From contig NC_133660.1 of assembly GCF_037893015.1 (NCBI RefSeq), positions 287,715,078-287,779,077 on the forward strand: a stretch of 64,000 bases of DNA, written 5' to 3'. Made by a program: the position numbers and the translations under genes. The notes under the pieces are model-generated. The model was not told the DNA's origin. It worked only from the letters and a program-made list of their open reading frames with translations, and made no database searches. Source of the stretch: Macrotis lagotis. Its lineage: Eukaryota > Chordata > Mammalia > Peramelemorphia > Peramelidae. Shown piece after piece: positions 45,101 through 52,439 of the stretch; the stretch's first letter is position 1, and every line of letters starts with the position of its first letter.

Positions 45101-48100
45101 TCTGCACCTCAAAAATCTGCAAAGGTGACAAAATCGGGGTTTGAGTATTTTGCTGATTGACTATGCTTAAGAAAAGGATGGAGAAAATGGTGTTATTGTT
45201 ACGATGTGTCCCCATGTGGAGTTTTCTTGGCAAGGATACTGGAGCTTTTTGCTCTTTCCTTCTCTGGCTCATTTTACAGATGAGGAAACTGAGGCTAACA
45301 GAATGAAGTGTCTGAGATCGGATTTGAACTCAGAAAGATGAGTCTTTCATGCTAGGCTTCCATTGGGTCACCTAACTTTCCAAGGGAGAAAAGGACAAGG
45401 CCACAGATTTTGTTTTTTTCCTGTTCAATATTTACCAGCACACCTCTGGGTCAATGGAGATACAGAGTGGATCTCCATGGCTTTGGTTGGTGAAGTGGGG
45501 AGCTGATTTACCCTAAGAGACTCATAGGTGACCAGGGAGTCAGAATGTCACTCCATCAACATTGATGAGTATTGGAGATACAGTCGAACAATGTAATAAA
45601 GCACTTCACTTAAATGTCTTCTTCACAATCCTGTGGACGTGGTACTATTGGGATTCTCTCCATTTGAAAGATAAAGTGAAGTTAAAAAGATGCTCAGGGT
45701 TAGAGGGTTAGCAGATGTCTGAGGTGGTGTCTGACTTGGGTCTTCTTGACTCCTAACCCGGCATTCTCTCAATGGATAATCTAGTAACCTATTGAACAGG
45801 GGGCTCCAGAAGCCCCTAGGTCCCCACATTTTTCTGGAAAATGCTCTAGCCCCCAATTGTCCTGAGTTCCAATCCTGACTCAGACATGGCCTGGCTGGGT
45901 GACCTTGGGCCAGTCACTTTACCCTGTCTGCCTCAGTTTCTACATCTGTGAAATGAGCTAGAACAGGACATGGTCCACCCCTCCAGTATCTCTGCCAAGA
46001 AAATTCTGATGGGATCCCACAGGGTGAGACATGACCAGACAAGGACTAAACAAAAAATCAGTCTGACCTTCTTGCCCAAATTCTGAGGTGTGGTGCTGGT
46101 TATATACCACTCACATTCTAGATTAGGAGGGAGAATAAAAAAATCCTCTCCCTTCTCCCTATAGATTCCCTCCCCCTTCTCTCAAAGTCAGGGTGGGAGT
46201 CTATGATGGGAGGGAATTCTAGACAAAGTGCTCCTCTTGACTAGCTTATATGCGGCACTGGGGGATTCTGGGAAAGTCATGTCCTTTCTGCCTCAGTTCC
46301 CTCATCCATAAAATGGGGACAACCCCACTCCTGCCCCCAACCCCTGTGAGGATCAAGTCAGATCACTATGGCAGAGGGTTTCCCAGTGAGTTTGGTGTCA
46401 CAGCTCTGGAATCTTCTGCCTCAAGAGCCCCTCCACAGCCCCTGGAGCAAGGGGATCTGCATCCCCAGACTTGGCAGAGAAGCACTGTTTCTTAATTCTC
46501 CAAGCAGCTCTAGCTTGCCTGCCTCAATCCACAAGACTGCCCCTGGCTGGCCCTCCTTTTCTTCTGGAAGATGCCACCAGAATGATGTTAGACTGACAAT
46601 TCAGGTCAACAGGAGCTTGGGAGGCTCCTCTGGGATGGGTCTTCTACACTTGGGCATCTCTCATTTCCCTAGAGGCTCTTCCATTTGGTCTTTTTTTTTT
46701 TTAGGTTTTTGCAAGGCAATAGGGTTAAGTGGCTTACCCAAGGCCACACAGCTAGGTAATTACTAAGTATCTGAGACCAGATTTGAACCCAGGTACTCCT
46801 GACTCCAGGGCTGGTGCTTTATCCACTATGCTACCTAGCCGCCCCTCCATTCAGTCTTGCTCCCAGAGTGCAGCCCCTTCTTTGAGGCGCCAGGCTGGGC
46901 AGTCCTGGGTCAGGGTCTTGCCACCGTACAATCAATTCCAAAGTTCTGTGTATGCATGTGCATCTATGTGAGGAGCATCAGAATGGAAACTCCTTGGAGG
47001 AGGCATCGTTTCCTGCTCCCAAGATGGCTCCTCCTGAATCCCTTGTTCATTGATGAGTGGGTCACTAAGTGCGCCACCCACTCCAGTTCCCATGAGAGCC
47101 CCCATGCCTCCACTATGACCTTGCTGTGTACCTGGCTACTTACTGCTCTTGCAAAATTTCTGTATGATACTTCAACTTCCAAACGCAACTCCATGATTAT
47201 GAGAATGATTCCGACAGTTGCTGCAGAAGCACTCACCATGTTTCCACATAGAGACATCTTTTTCTGAAAAAGGCATGCATGTTAAATTTAGGAGTAAGGA
47301 GATGGTTTTGGAAGAAATGGCTCTGGGTTTCTGTCAGGGGTCTTCCAGTCTCTGACATCACTGGGGTCCCCCCCTCCTAGTCTCTAGGGTCTGTGCACCT
47401 GGAAGACCATTGGATTTGGGGTCACAAGTCCCAGACTGATCTGGGCTGCCTGTAGGAACTCTGACAGATCCCATGACCTCTCTCTGGCCTCAACTTCTGC
47501 CCATTAACCTCCAAGTGAGGATTTCTAGAGCTGGTTAGTTGGGGGACTAAAGTTCAACTGAGTTGGGAACTTTGCTGAAAAAAACCAAAGGGGTTCTTAA
47601 CCTGAGGTCCATAGCTCTGCTGGGGGTTTGTGAGTTTAGACGGGAAGAGAAAATAACATAAATGAAATTTAGTATTTCTTTCCATTATGAATGGTAGCAA
47701 CTAACATTTTGAGAAGTCAACAGGCTTCACCCGATTGCCCCCAAGGATCAAGAAGGGTGAAGAACCCCTGAAAGTCTCTTCAGGCCTAAAATGCCAGGAT
47801 TTTAATTTAATAGTCCATCAGAGGGGAGGAGAGAGGAATGAAGGGGGAGAGAGGGGAGAAGGAAAGAGGTGGACACTAGTGAACTAGAGAACAAAGGGAG
47901 GCCACAGAGCACAGGTGGCATCAGGGCCTGGGAAGGTCTCTGGGTCCACTGCCACTGCTCCAAGCTGACTATTTTGGGAACTCTGCTATCTCTGCTTTAC
48001 AAGCCAGTGGCTACAAGAGCATTTCCATACCTTCTAACTTACCAGGCAGATGGAGGAGAACTTTGCTTCACCTATTGAGAGGATTCCAGATATGAAAAAC

Positions 48101-48107
48101 TGCATAG

Positions 48108-48151
<44 letters not shown>

Positions 48152-50341
48152 ATGCCATTTGCCATTGCTAAGGGTGACCCCCCTCCCCAGCACCACATGC
48201 TTCTGGGAGCCTGAACAGACCTTGTGGGCCCAGGGCCCCATTGCCGCCCCACTCAAGGAAGCCCTCCAAGGAGCCTCCTCAGGCTGCCCGGCCTCTCCAG
48301 AAGACTTCCAGGGGGGATGGCTCTGGGAGACTCTCATTGCTAGGGGAGTCACAACTTCCTCCTTTTGCTCCTATTTCTAATAGTTTGAGTTCTGGGTTCA
48401 CACCTGCCCCTTGTCATTGACCACCTTGTGACTCGGCAAGCTCTTTCCTTTCCCTGGGCTCTTTGATCCCAAGATCCCAGCTGCCTCAATTACACAACAC
48501 TTGCATCACTTCCTTCTTTAAAGTCTTTTCGGAAAAACAAAAGCTCATTTTCTGGAATTCTCTTTCCTTCCCCTTGACTTCCAATGGGGAGGCCTGAATG
48601 TGGGTGCTCAGAACAAGTCTGAGGCCACACCTTGGGGGGGGGGGGGAGCTGGGAACTCCACGGGAGGTTTAATAGAGAAGGCAGATGGAGCCCCTTGAAG
48701 TGGCTTAAGTGAAGAGCCTTGCCCAGGGCTCCCAAGACAGTGGATGGTGGAGGAGAGCCCTGTGATCCATCTGGTGGTGGCCCTCTTTACACTCTTTGGA
48801 ATTCTATCAACTGCCCATCACATCCAAGTAATTAGGCTAGGTTCTGTGCTTGCACTTTCCCTCAAGCAGCTTGACTTTCATAGTATCAATGGCAATGTGG
48901 CCATGGGAAGGTGATGCCAGCCAGGGCAGCATGGTCCAATGGGCAGAACACTGGGAACCTGGGGCAGACAGGTCCCTCCCCTTTCTGGGACTTATTTTTC
49001 CCCATCTGTAAAATGAGAGAGTTGGATGAGATGGTAGGCAGGGTTAGCTCCCCCTCTAAACTCTCTCTTTGCAATGTCTGCTGCTTTTGCAATACAACCC
49101 ACAAATGATGTGGTGGCATGGAGGAAGCAGCCCCCTCCTCTGGCCCTGGAAGAGGGACCTGAGAAGAACATAGAAAGAGCCTCTCTCTTGCTCATAGGTA
49201 GCATCAACTGCTACCTGAGACAATGAGTTTACATAGAACACCGCTTCTGGGCAGCCAGATGCCAAAAGAACCTGTGGGCTCAGTTCTGTGGTGGGCACTT
49301 AAGCCCCTTCCCAAGTTGCTTCCTTCTGGTTTCATTTTTCCTTCTGACAACATATTGTTCCCTTCCAAGCTCTAGCTGAGGGAGCCTTGGCCTTTCCAGG
49401 CAGGAGGTTTCCAGATCTGTCTCTGGCTCTTTGACCATGTTTTCTCTTGCTACTGCCTTCCTTACAGAGCTTGGCTCAAATAGTGGAGGCAGAAAGGTCT
49501 AGTGGAAAGAGGACTATATCTGGAACCTGAGGTCCTGGGTTCAAATCCCATCTCAGACCCCTTGGGCCTCAGTGTCCCCATCTGTAAAATGAGGGGATCA
49601 ATGCTAAAGGCTTGAGGTCTTTTCAAGCAATCTCTGTAATGGGGCGATGTCCTTCATCCCCTTAGGCATGCTGAGTACCAGAGTATAAGCAACTTGAGGC
49701 CAGCCCTGCTTTGGTCTTGGTGCTGGACACCCAGCAAAGATGATCTCCATGCTTGGTGAACTGTACAAGGACACCATGAGGTCAAGGGAAGAACCTCAGG
49801 TTGGGAGTCAGCAGGGAGAAGTGTGTTCAAATCTGGACTCCCATTTGTATCAGTGATATGACTGAAGCCTCAGTTTCCTCCTCAGTAAAATGGGAAGAGC
49901 CCTTTGCTTGACCACTCATGCTGCCCCAGCCACTGAGCAAGGCAAGTCAAAGATGACAGAAGTGGTTCCTAGAAGGTACAGTATTTCTAAGGACCAGACT
50001 GGAGTTGGAAGGACACTGACCAACCTCTCACTTTATATCTGAGGACACTGAGACTTGGGCAGAGGGAGGCATGAGATTCCCCCCACACATACACACACAG
50101 AGGGGGTATTGAGGGCAGGAGTGGACTGGTCAGTACACATCTCACTGTGCTGAGCTCATCACCAATCCTGCGTCATGACTGTATGGAGACTGTGTGTGAA
50201 AATGGGACCTTCCCTTAACTCCCAGATGCATTTGAGCCAAAGAACTCCAGCTAAGAAAGTCTTCCTTTTCCTTAACTCTACCCCATGCTGAGAGAGAGGC
50301 ACACAGAGAGACAGAGACAGACATACACAGACAGAGTCAGA

Positions 50342-50432
<91 letters not shown>

Positions 50433-51217
50433 GTTTTCTACTCACACTGAATGCCCATGTTGGATAACATGCTTTATAGGTTATAGGATTATACAAGCCA
50501 AAATATCCTTTTATCTGATTGCTATAAAGGCCATGCAGGAAAAGCCACATTAATATGTGGAAGGAACTCGTCATGATCTGGAGGACCTGGGAGAAGAGGA
50601 GGTGGTCAGTATGGGTATAGTGGAAGGGTTGGGCCACCCTTGGGGATTCCTTGGGCATCACCCCAAAGGAGCAGGGCACTCCCACCACCCCCCTCACAGG
50701 GCTGTGCATGAGCATTAGTCAAGAAGCAGATGGAATTGATCATAGACCTGGGGCAGAACAAAAAAGCTGAATTCTAGTCAAGGGCTTGGGCCAAGCTGAC
50801 AGTGCGGTTTGTCATTCTTTAACCAGGCTGGCCACATAGCTTCCTCTGCAGGCTGAGTCTGAGCCCCAGACACAGCCTTGATGCCCAGCCACCCACCCTA
50901 GCATCCCCTGCAGGTAGCTCCAGGCACAGTCTTATGTCTACCCTGTCCACAAGAATCTCTTCTCATTATAAAAAAGGAATTCATTTTTACTTCCAAAGTC
51001 TACTACTAGCTGGCAGGGATTTCCCTGTGTAAGGGGGGGGGGGGATGGACTGAGATAGGGAAGAGCCAGTCTCAGCATTATTAAATCTCCAGGTCATTAT
51101 CTGAAAGAATAGAATTATAGATGAACAGGCAAACTTGGATGGGAGTGCCAGCCCCCTCCTATTGAGTTCCCCTGTGGGAAGGAGAAATGCAGGCTTTGGA
51201 AGCAGAGAGCTTGGTTC

Positions 51218-51262
<45 letters not shown>

Positions 51263-51346
51263 ACACAGACACACACAGACACACACAGACACACACAGAC
51301 ACACACACAGACACACACACACACACACACACAGACACACACACAG

Positions 51347-51378
<32 letters not shown>

Positions 51379-52439
51379 ACACACACACACACACTGTCCT
51401 TGTGACCAAGCACCAACTACGCCACCTCTTTGCTCCTCAGTTTCCTTGAAAGGACAGCTGTCCCAGCTCTCATTAACAGCTTATCCTTGGCAACTATTGA
51501 CCACTTTCCTTTAGGGCAAGTTTTCAATTTCTCATTCAAAGTCAAATGTTTCTGTAATACAAGCAATCACTCCTGATTTCTATCAATTGTGGGAGTATAA
51601 CTTTTGAAAGGGAGGCTACAGACCCAAACTGAATTTGGAAGTCTGCCTCTATTCTCTCAACTTCCTCGGTCAATGACCAAGAGCATCCCTAAATGGACTT
51701 GGGATAGTATGCTGCTCAGTATTTCCACTAAATACCTGCAGGAAATCCCTAGCATCAAAGTCCTAGAATGCTTCTCCAGTCCATGCCTTGAGGGAGCACA
51801 TTCCCCAGACAGAAGTTATGATTCTTAAATTAAGAGTTAAATGAAATAATATGAGGTACGATGGAACATTTTCTAGAACTCACTTTTGTGCTACATTTTT
51901 TAGTACCAAATTAGGAGGAGAATAAGTTTATAAGAGTCAAAGATTAGTAGACTCGGCTCATAGCACAGCAACTGCCTGTGGAGTCTGACCAGCAGAGGGA
52001 GGGATCTGCCCCCTTTGGGACAGAAAGGAGGCTTCTCACACTACCTTGGATGTGCACAAAAAACTAGACATTGTCTTTGCCTTCAAAGACTTGGTGTCTA
52101 AGAGAAGGGACAAAGGAATCTTTCCTGAAACGTATAGGACCAGATCAAACTATAAAAACTATCTCTTGTTAGCTGCGGGTCACAGCCTGCCTAAAATGTC
52201 TCAGGCCCTGTTTATGGCCCAAGGTTCTTTAGGGAGATTGATTTTGGGGTCCTGCTGCTAAGTATCAGGTACAGTGAGCCACCTGGAGATGGCTGGCATC
52301 TCATACTCCTTGGAAGTCTTTATTCTTTGACTTCACCAAAGCCAGACTACTCCATTACATTCATCTTTATAAAATGGAAAGTTCCCAGGGTTACACTCAC
52401 CCCCAATATCAAGCAGTTCACAACAGAAAGGTTTTCCAT
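42073..52439 (-). CDS. MS4A13: MS4A13-like four-transmembrane protein, complete coding region in six exons
   Basis: Six minus-strand exons join without a frame break: 52439-52401, 50586-50446, 48099-48043, 47263-47144, 44936-44841 and 42192-42073. They encode 190 residues (13+47+19+40+32+39). Every joint has AG/GT sites and all phases are 0. MS4A hallmarks are visible: LGVLQIMTSSFHIL at the start of TM1, FFISGIL in TM2, a TM3 ending IILIIMEL, and LLEFSLT in TM4. The tail is acidic, as in CD20. The strings QIKG, VSYRN and LGR.VS.ILL agree with human MS4A13 as I remember it. MS4A proteins are membrane proteins with both ends in the cytoplasm; the role of MS4A13 is not well defined. The ATG sits in an ideal CCACCATGG context with an in-frame stop upstream. 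No AATAAA was found downstream; a TATAAA lies at about 41543-41548. Confidence 0.85.
42483..42509 (+). repeat. Poly-T run
   Basis: About 27 T in a row, with no SINE attached. On the gene strand it is a poly-A in the last intron of the MS4A13-like gene. Confidence 0.9.
42715..42900. mobile_element. hAT-type mini-transposon copy
   Basis: GGTTTCCTTTGTAATCCTATAC, CATTTAAAGCTATCATTCTG, GGTCCATGAACCCTTGGTTTAG. Reverse relative to the 47589 copy. Confidence 0.6.
43560..43685 (-). mobile_element. MIR/tRNA-type SINE fragment
   Basis: TTAAGTGACTTGTCCAAAATC, GGATTTGAACTCCCCTCC and CTATCCACTGAGCCCTAGCTGCC. Confidence 0.7.
44275..44420. mobile_element. hAT-type mini-transposon copy
   Basis: GGTAAAGCCCAAGCTTCTCC, then GGATTATAAAGGAAACCAAT and GAAATACAATTGTCAAAACA. 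Confidence 0.55.
44841..44936 (-). CDS. MS4A13: MS4A13-like exon 5 (TM4)
   Basis: 96 nt, 32 codons, beginning ILGRIVSSILLVTSLLEFSL and ending LLCNW. The LLEF motif is typical of MS4A TM4. The acceptor is tttcttttgcag-like and the donor gtgagtgg. Confidence 0.85.
45185..45375 (-). mobile_element. SINE with BovB/RTE-type tail
   Basis: GAGTTTTCTTGGCAAGGATA, CATTTTACAGATGAGGAAAC, TCGGATTTGAACTCAG. Confidence 0.7.
45865..46060 (+). mobile_element. SINE with BovB/RTE-type tail
   Basis: GTTCCAATCCTGACTCAGAC, CTCAGTTTCTACATCTGTG, CCAGTATCTCTGCCAAGAAA, GGATCCCACAGGGTGAGACA. Confidence 0.7.
46690..46845 (-). mobile_element. tRNA-derived SINE
   Basis: Complete reverse copy. The flanks CTTCCATTTGGTC and CCTCCATTCAGTC are imperfect target duplicates. 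Confidence 0.9.
47144..47263 (-). CDS. MS4A13: MS4A13-like exon 4 (TM3)
   Basis: 120 nt, 40 codons, beginning KKMSLCGNMVSASAATVGII and ending EVSYRNFARA before gtaagtag. The hydrophobic run SASAATVGIILIIMEL is TM3. VSYRN followed by LGR in the next exon is the best MS4A13-specific signature. Confidence 0.85.
47589..47770. mobile_element. hAT-type mini-transposon, both ends visible
   Basis: Left end GGGGTTCTTAACCTGAGGTCC; right end GGGTGAAGAACCCCTG. The inverted ends (CAGGGGTTCTTAACCT-like) and the length of about 180 nt fit a non-autonomous hAT-Charlie-type element. This is the reference copy for the others in the window. Confidence 0.65.
48043..48099 (-). CDS. MS4A13: MS4A13-like exon 3 (TM2), 57 nt
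   Basis: It encodes FFISGILSIGEAKFSSICL. The length of 57 nt and the ISG motif match the TM2 exon of CD20. The acceptor is ttctatgcag and the donor gtaagtta. A (GT)19 tract ends about 10 nt before the exon, so the usual polypyrimidine tract is short. Skipping this exon would keep the reading frame and delete TM2. Confidence 0.85.
48110..48147 (-). repeat. (GT)19 just upstream of the TM2 exon
   Basis: On the gene strand it is (GT)19 followed by ttctatgcag and the 57 nt exon. Confidence 0.95.
48930..49650 (+). mobile_element. MIR relics in intron
   Basis: CCATCTGTAAAATGAGAGAG at 49003, and GGTTCAAATCCCATCTCAGA with CCCATCTGTAAAATGAGGGG at 49538-49593. The rest of this intron part is unrecognised. 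Confidence 0.55.
50342..50430 (-). repeat. (CT)n(GT)n compound microsatellite beside a donor
   Basis: On the gene strand it starts 15 nt inside the intron after exon 2 of the MS4A13-like gene: about 21 CT units, then about 20 GT units. Confidence 0.95.
50446..50586 (-). CDS. MS4A13: MS4A13-like exon 2 (TM1 and first loop)
   Basis: 141 nt, 47 codons, phase 0 at both ends. It encodes VLQIMTSSFHILMWLFLHGL (TM1), then a loop with QIKG and ITYKACYPTW, equivalent to the YPFWGG segment of other MS4A proteins. The donor is gtgagtag. Only 15 nt into the intron a (CT)n tract about 42 nt long begins, followed by (GT)n. Confidence 0.85.
51222..51394 (+). repeat. Composite (AC)n / (ACACACAGAC)n array
   Basis: About 170 nt with regular CAGACACACA interruptions, in the first coding intron of the MS4A13-like gene. 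Confidence 0.95.

Follow-up and report, generated by a model that had tools for sequence, protein, structure and literature searches.

A UG-repeat-dominated 3' splice site before an in-frame 57-nt exon of a predicted MS4A-like gene, and its possible part in exon skipping

Results

The window analysed here, a stretch of 64,000 nt from Macrotis lagotis, carries two MS4A-like genes on its minus strand (Table 1). The first was modelled as five exons, termed A to E, which join in a single open frame running to a stop codon and encode 173 residues counted from the first ATG. All exons were predicted from sequence alone, exons D and E through a search for AG/GT-bordered stretches that are open, hydrophobic or in phase, together with visual inspection. 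Exons A-C matched the Pfam CD20-like family PF04103 with 32.5 bits (E 1.1e-7; cut-off 27.9) and the full A-E reading with 29.0 bits, also above this cut-off, while exons A-C without exon B returned no Pfam family at E up to 1. Exons A-C could also be aligned to the solved CD20 structure 6y97 (E 4.4e-6), over a stretch that covers the TM1 region. By these homologies the predicted first gene is a member of the MS4A / CD20-like family. A SINE-like element with an A-rich tail, which we take to resemble a marsupial SINE, lies in the intron after exon C (about 46850-46690, minus strand). The name MS4A13 for the first gene is tentative and fits the human protein. MS4A13 has been described with a 'truncated N terminal cytoplasmic domain' (PMC2826416), in agreement with the ATG inside exon A; further upstream coding exons are possible. 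The second gene matched the Pfam CD20 family with an E-value of 1.1e-12 and shares 33% identity with the first over 55 residues (E 8e-4).

Table 1. Predicted exons, repeats and splice signals of the two MS4A-like genes, in window coordinates.
Feature	Position	Strand	Description
Exon A	50586-50446	-	141 nt; ATG at codon 5 is a possible start; holds the first part of TM2 and, by homology, TM1; AG / GTGAGT borders; CD20 match
(CU)21	50430-50389	-	after 15 intron bases
UG array, donor end of intron A-B	50389-50343	-	23.5 copies, 95% matches; uninterrupted 35 nt at 50377-50343
Likely branch site CAUUGAC	48154-48148	-	A at 48149 (-50), touches 5' end of the tract; simple-consensus score
(GU)19 tract	48147-48110	-	downstream of the likely branch point, upstream of the AG; TDP-43 site (predicted), pUG fold (possible)
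Remnant pyrimidine tract and acceptor, UUCUAUGCAG	48109-48100	-	10 nt separating (GU)19 from exon B
Exon B	48099-48043	-	57 nt, phase 0/0; FFISGILSIGEAKFSSICL; roughly half of TM2, and the loop to TM3
Exon C	47263-47144	-	120 nt; TM3
Exon D	44936-44841	-	96 nt; TM4
Exon E	42192-42073	-	acidic C-terminal tail and stop
Second gene, exons	26621-26478, 25474-25418, 25207-25088, 22954-22828	-	the four exons traced
Second gene, UG-rich tract and acceptor, UUUUCUACCUAG	25518-25475	-	mostly UGUA repeats; precedes its 57-nt exon
Second gene, 57-nt exon, HIISGTFVILTEKKSRRSL	25474-25418	-	homologous to exon B

The intron between exons A and B (50445-48100, minus strand, 2346 nt) bears repeats at both ends. 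A preliminary description had it starting, 15 nt in, with (CU)~21(UG)~20 and ending with (UG)19 about 10 nt before the exon, and was right in both coordinates and counts. Read in the frame of exon B, the UG tract stays open (about 48165-48043, minus strand) and gives alternating Val-Cys, so that the last intron bases bring no stop. A third UG array near the gene and on its strand, 175 nt long and UG-rich, lies about 630 nt upstream of exon A (51220-51394, minus strand).

Scored with a simple six-position branch-site consensus, CAUUGAC was the only candidate with a score of 5 or more (of 6) within the 68-nt AG exclusion zone of the exon B acceptor; a weaker candidate (score 4) was located at -70. 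Since this match at -50 is the only good one and the tract contains no A, the UG tract most likely occupies the interval between the putative branch point and the AG. AG exclusion zones were longest at the two 57-nt exons (68 and 72 nt, compared to 23-57 nt at the other six of eight acceptors), and the branch-point match of exon B lies farther from its AG than the best match at any of these six. The longest U-run left before the AG of exon B counts three bases, in the remnant UUUCU, and 10 of the 17 bases at -20 to -4 are pyrimidines, fewer than at any other of the eight acceptors (11-16 there). The donor of exon B, CTG/GTAAGT, agrees with 8 of 9 consensus positions, which is equal best of eight donors, and is identical over nine bases to the donor after the second 57-nt exon. 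Exon B also contains a UAGG, a candidate hnRNP A1 silencer motif.

Across the window and on both strands, at least 19 UG in the preceding 50 nt were found for only one of 2520 pyrimidine-preceded AGs (defined by 6 or more pyrimidines among the nine positions from -12 to -4), namely the exon B acceptor, and for 5 of 9694 AGs when the pyrimidine filter was lifted. When the five long UG/CA-bearing arrays of the window were placed at random in 200,000 trials, 0.45% of the trials brought a UG array to within 15 nt of any of seven acceptors and 0 framed both ends of one intron (0.88% and 1e-5, respectively, with strand ignored), but such nulls, chosen post hoc, are overly strict, and the chance figures overstate the surprise because the site was chosen by a reader scanning for oddities and because UG repeats of 12 or more are reported to be enriched near human splice sites, both 5' and 3' (PMC12276007; PMC12697283, preprint). 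About 20,000 such repeats are reported in humans, commonly near splice sites (PMC12697283, preprint; PMC12276007), which makes one more site of this kind unremarkable.

What is new here, and the part worth following, is a UG-rich tract at the same acceptor of the second gene. This acceptor is preceded by GCAUGUGUGUAUGUAUGUAUGUAUGUAUGUGGUUUUCUACCUAG and has 10 UG in 50 nt, a count reached by 7 of the 2520 filtered AGs (both 57-nt exons included) and by 16 of the 9694 unfiltered ones. RTGY tetramers in the last 60 nt number 19 before exon B and 9 before the second 57-nt exon, as compared to 0, 2, 0, 1, 0, 0 and 1 at the other seven acceptors, a likeness that was spotted after reading the sequence, though the homologous exon is the natural comparison, in a sample of two genes. 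Near the acceptors, convincing alignment between the flanks of the two tracts is limited to the repeat and the pyrimidines that follow it, a result compatible with common descent of the tracts as well as with their independent growth.

Skipping of exon B would be in frame, as previously proposed, the joined exons measuring 477 nt in place of 534 nt for A-E, and would remove FFISGILSIGEAKFSSICL. This segment aligns with the later part of CD20 TM2 and the loop to TM3. The exon at 48043-48099 had been called the TM2 exon: its length of 57 nt was confirmed, but by the CD20 alignment it covers roughly half of TM2 and the loop to TM3, and not the whole of TM2. In a hydropathy scan of the full protein, TM2 (best windows 35-53 at 1.27 and 44-62 at 1.42), TM3 and TM4 passed, and TM1 stayed below 1.0 in the full and skipped forms alike. 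On skipping, the TM2 windows were gone and TM3 and TM4 remained. The predicted change from a four-pass to a three-pass protein is thus borne out for the loss of TM2, but TM1 fails even in the full protein and holds by homology only, so that 'three-pass' is valid by homology only.

Discussion

A 3' splice site repressed through UG repeats belongs to a kind that is already known, and exon B is a further candidate. In CFTR, exon 9 is in frame and the branch point lies upstream of the UG tract. The (UG)m(U)n element of CFTR intron 8 resembles the site described here in that a long UG tract directly precedes a very short U-run and the AG of a membrane-protein exon. The 11 or more UG repeats that sites of this type carry just 5' of their U-run have their counterpart at exon B in (GU)19, ending 10 nt before the exon, and the short U-run and upstream branch point in UUUCU and in CAUUGAC at -50 (simple consensus). 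In CFTR, (TG)11-T5 functions as a TDP-43 site; where a long UG run adjoins a short U-run, TDP-43 can repress exon 9 jointly with hnRNP A1, and skipping also requires an exonic hnRNP A1 silencer (PMC12171016); the same source upholds the earlier statement that (UG)n beside a 3' splice site recruits TDP-43 and promotes skipping of that exon. The exon B site differs in its 19 repeats (11-13 in CFTR) and its U-run of 3 compared to T5 (PMC12171016), as well as in the 57-nt length of the exon and the second repeat cluster at the start of the intron, and TDP-43-dependent skipping is at exon B a prediction.

The position and uniqueness of the tract, the putative branch site upstream of it, the long AG exclusion zone, the poorest pyrimidine count and the in-frame exon lead us to favour a reading in which the 3' splice site of exon B is dominated by UG and is of the same type as that of CFTR exon 9, where TDP-43 binding would lower inclusion, although we would give it about an even chance. 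Skipping of exon B as such appears plausible, with the balance about evenly poised. TDP-43 would bind the single-stranded UG lattice, whose 38 nt offer space for about three 12-nt sites, and would hinder U2AF65 and SF1 on the adjoining tract and branch point. Hindered recognition of the 3' site would in turn lower exon B inclusion, the strong donor would keep some transcripts full-length, and the protein read from the skipped mRNA, still in frame, would be without roughly half of TM2 and the loop between TM2 and TM3. Each step from TDP-43 binding onward is one that we infer. The affinity of TDP-43 for (GU)6 is picomolar and its binding excludes the pUG fold (PMC12697283, preprint), and mouse spermatocytes express TDP-43 highly (PMC8569592), which bears on this gene only if it is expressed in testis.

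Against strong skipping stands the exon B donor, at 8 of 9 positions, and since the full A-E frame is intact, the form that includes exon B must be made if the gene works. Reportedly, to judge from the title of a cited study, the effects of UG arrays near donors are unpredictable. The good donor and the intact frame would also suit neutral growth of a microsatellite in a tolerant pyrimidine tract, with exon B constitutive by virtue of that donor and of a tolerance of U2AF for UUUCU, an account that we regard as possible but somewhat doubtful. The five long UG/CA-bearing arrays within 64 kb, which make such arrays common here, speak for it, as does the general UG enrichment at human splice sites (PMC12276007), whereas the pyrimidine count of exon B, lowest of eight acceptors, its branch-point match, farther out than the best at the six acceptors of exons other than the 57-nt ones, and the repression exerted in CFTR by UG tracts shorter than (GU)19 (PMC12171016) argue against it.

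We consider it improbable that RNA structure governs the site, (GU)19 forming a pUG quadruplex that either keeps U2AF off or draws the distant branch point and the AG together, in which case TDP-43 would act as an anti-folding factor and could even aid inclusion. Repeats of 12 or more fold, a length that (GU)19 exceeds, and TDP-43 binding and the pUG fold are mutually exclusive (PMC12697283, preprint; PMC12276007), but at nuclear TDP-43 levels binding is argued to outrun folding (PMC12697283, preprint), and the tract of the second gene is imperfect as a UG repeat. Human pUG RNAs resemble the exon B site in having at least 12 UG repeats next to splice sites, 5' as well as 3' (PMC12276007); unlike in that set, two paralogues here have UG-rich tracts at the corresponding acceptor, that of the second gene being interrupted. 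Very unlikely, in our judgement, is a looping of the repeat-bearing intron ends, with PTBP1 on (CU)21 and TDP-43 or CELF on both UG arrays, that would decide splicing instead of local masking and possibly affect exon A. UG arrays do lie on the transcript strand at both ends of intron A-B and TC-rich motifs reportedly occur, though less enriched, downstream of exons enhanced by PTBP1, yet the second gene is without such an array at the start of its intron and the intron ends do not pair (duplex of -13.6 kcal/mol compared to -32.1 +/- 4.0 for 200 mononucleotide shuffles), a result with which protein bridging is compatible. A base-paired loop between these ends was rejected, the duplex being weaker than the shuffles and also than the mean of the other segments of the same intron. 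At Rfam gathering thresholds the window contained no known structured RNA.

In-frame skipping of exon 3 has been described in two members of the family, giving MS4A7-s and the MS4A2 product t-FceRIb; exon 3 spans residues 50-94 in MS4A7, and its skipping in MS4A2 loses the first two TM regions (PMC10031966, PMC8776166). By these positions exon 3 would be the larger exon that precedes the 57-nt one. Along with the CD20 variants, MS4A7-s and t-FceRIb are nevertheless, like the exon B-skipped form, MS4A members that lose membrane-region exons in frame, although the passages on them name no UG repeat as the cause. Within the open-licence literature, none of the papers that came closest to joining an MS4A gene with UG, TG or GT repeats, TDP-43 or a splice site named MS4A. 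If TDP-43-dependent skipping of exon B is true, the site would be a natural relative of the CFTR exon 9 acceptor outside CFTR, with a longer repeat and a shorter U-run. Since such repeats often vary in length among individuals, the isoform ratio could then vary too. The gene family is also one where loss of a transmembrane exon is already known to alter protein trafficking and function (PMC10031966, PMC8776166).

Both paralogues having their tract at the same acceptor, and the other seven acceptors showing few or no such motifs, a UG-rich tract with a distant branch point might be an old or recurrently selected feature of the MS4A 57-nt TM2 exon, that is, a shared switch between four-pass and shortened proteins gated by UG-binding proteins (e.g. 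TDP-43); we think this unlikely. The affinity of the TDP-43 RNA-binding domain for the interrupted-UG RNA GUGUGAAUGAAU was about 10^5-fold lower than for (GU)6 (PMC12697283, preprint), and for this reason the UGUA tract of the second gene may be a poor TDP-43 site; it might serve another UG-binding protein or none. The comparison of paralogues makes the idea checkable across the MS4A cluster.
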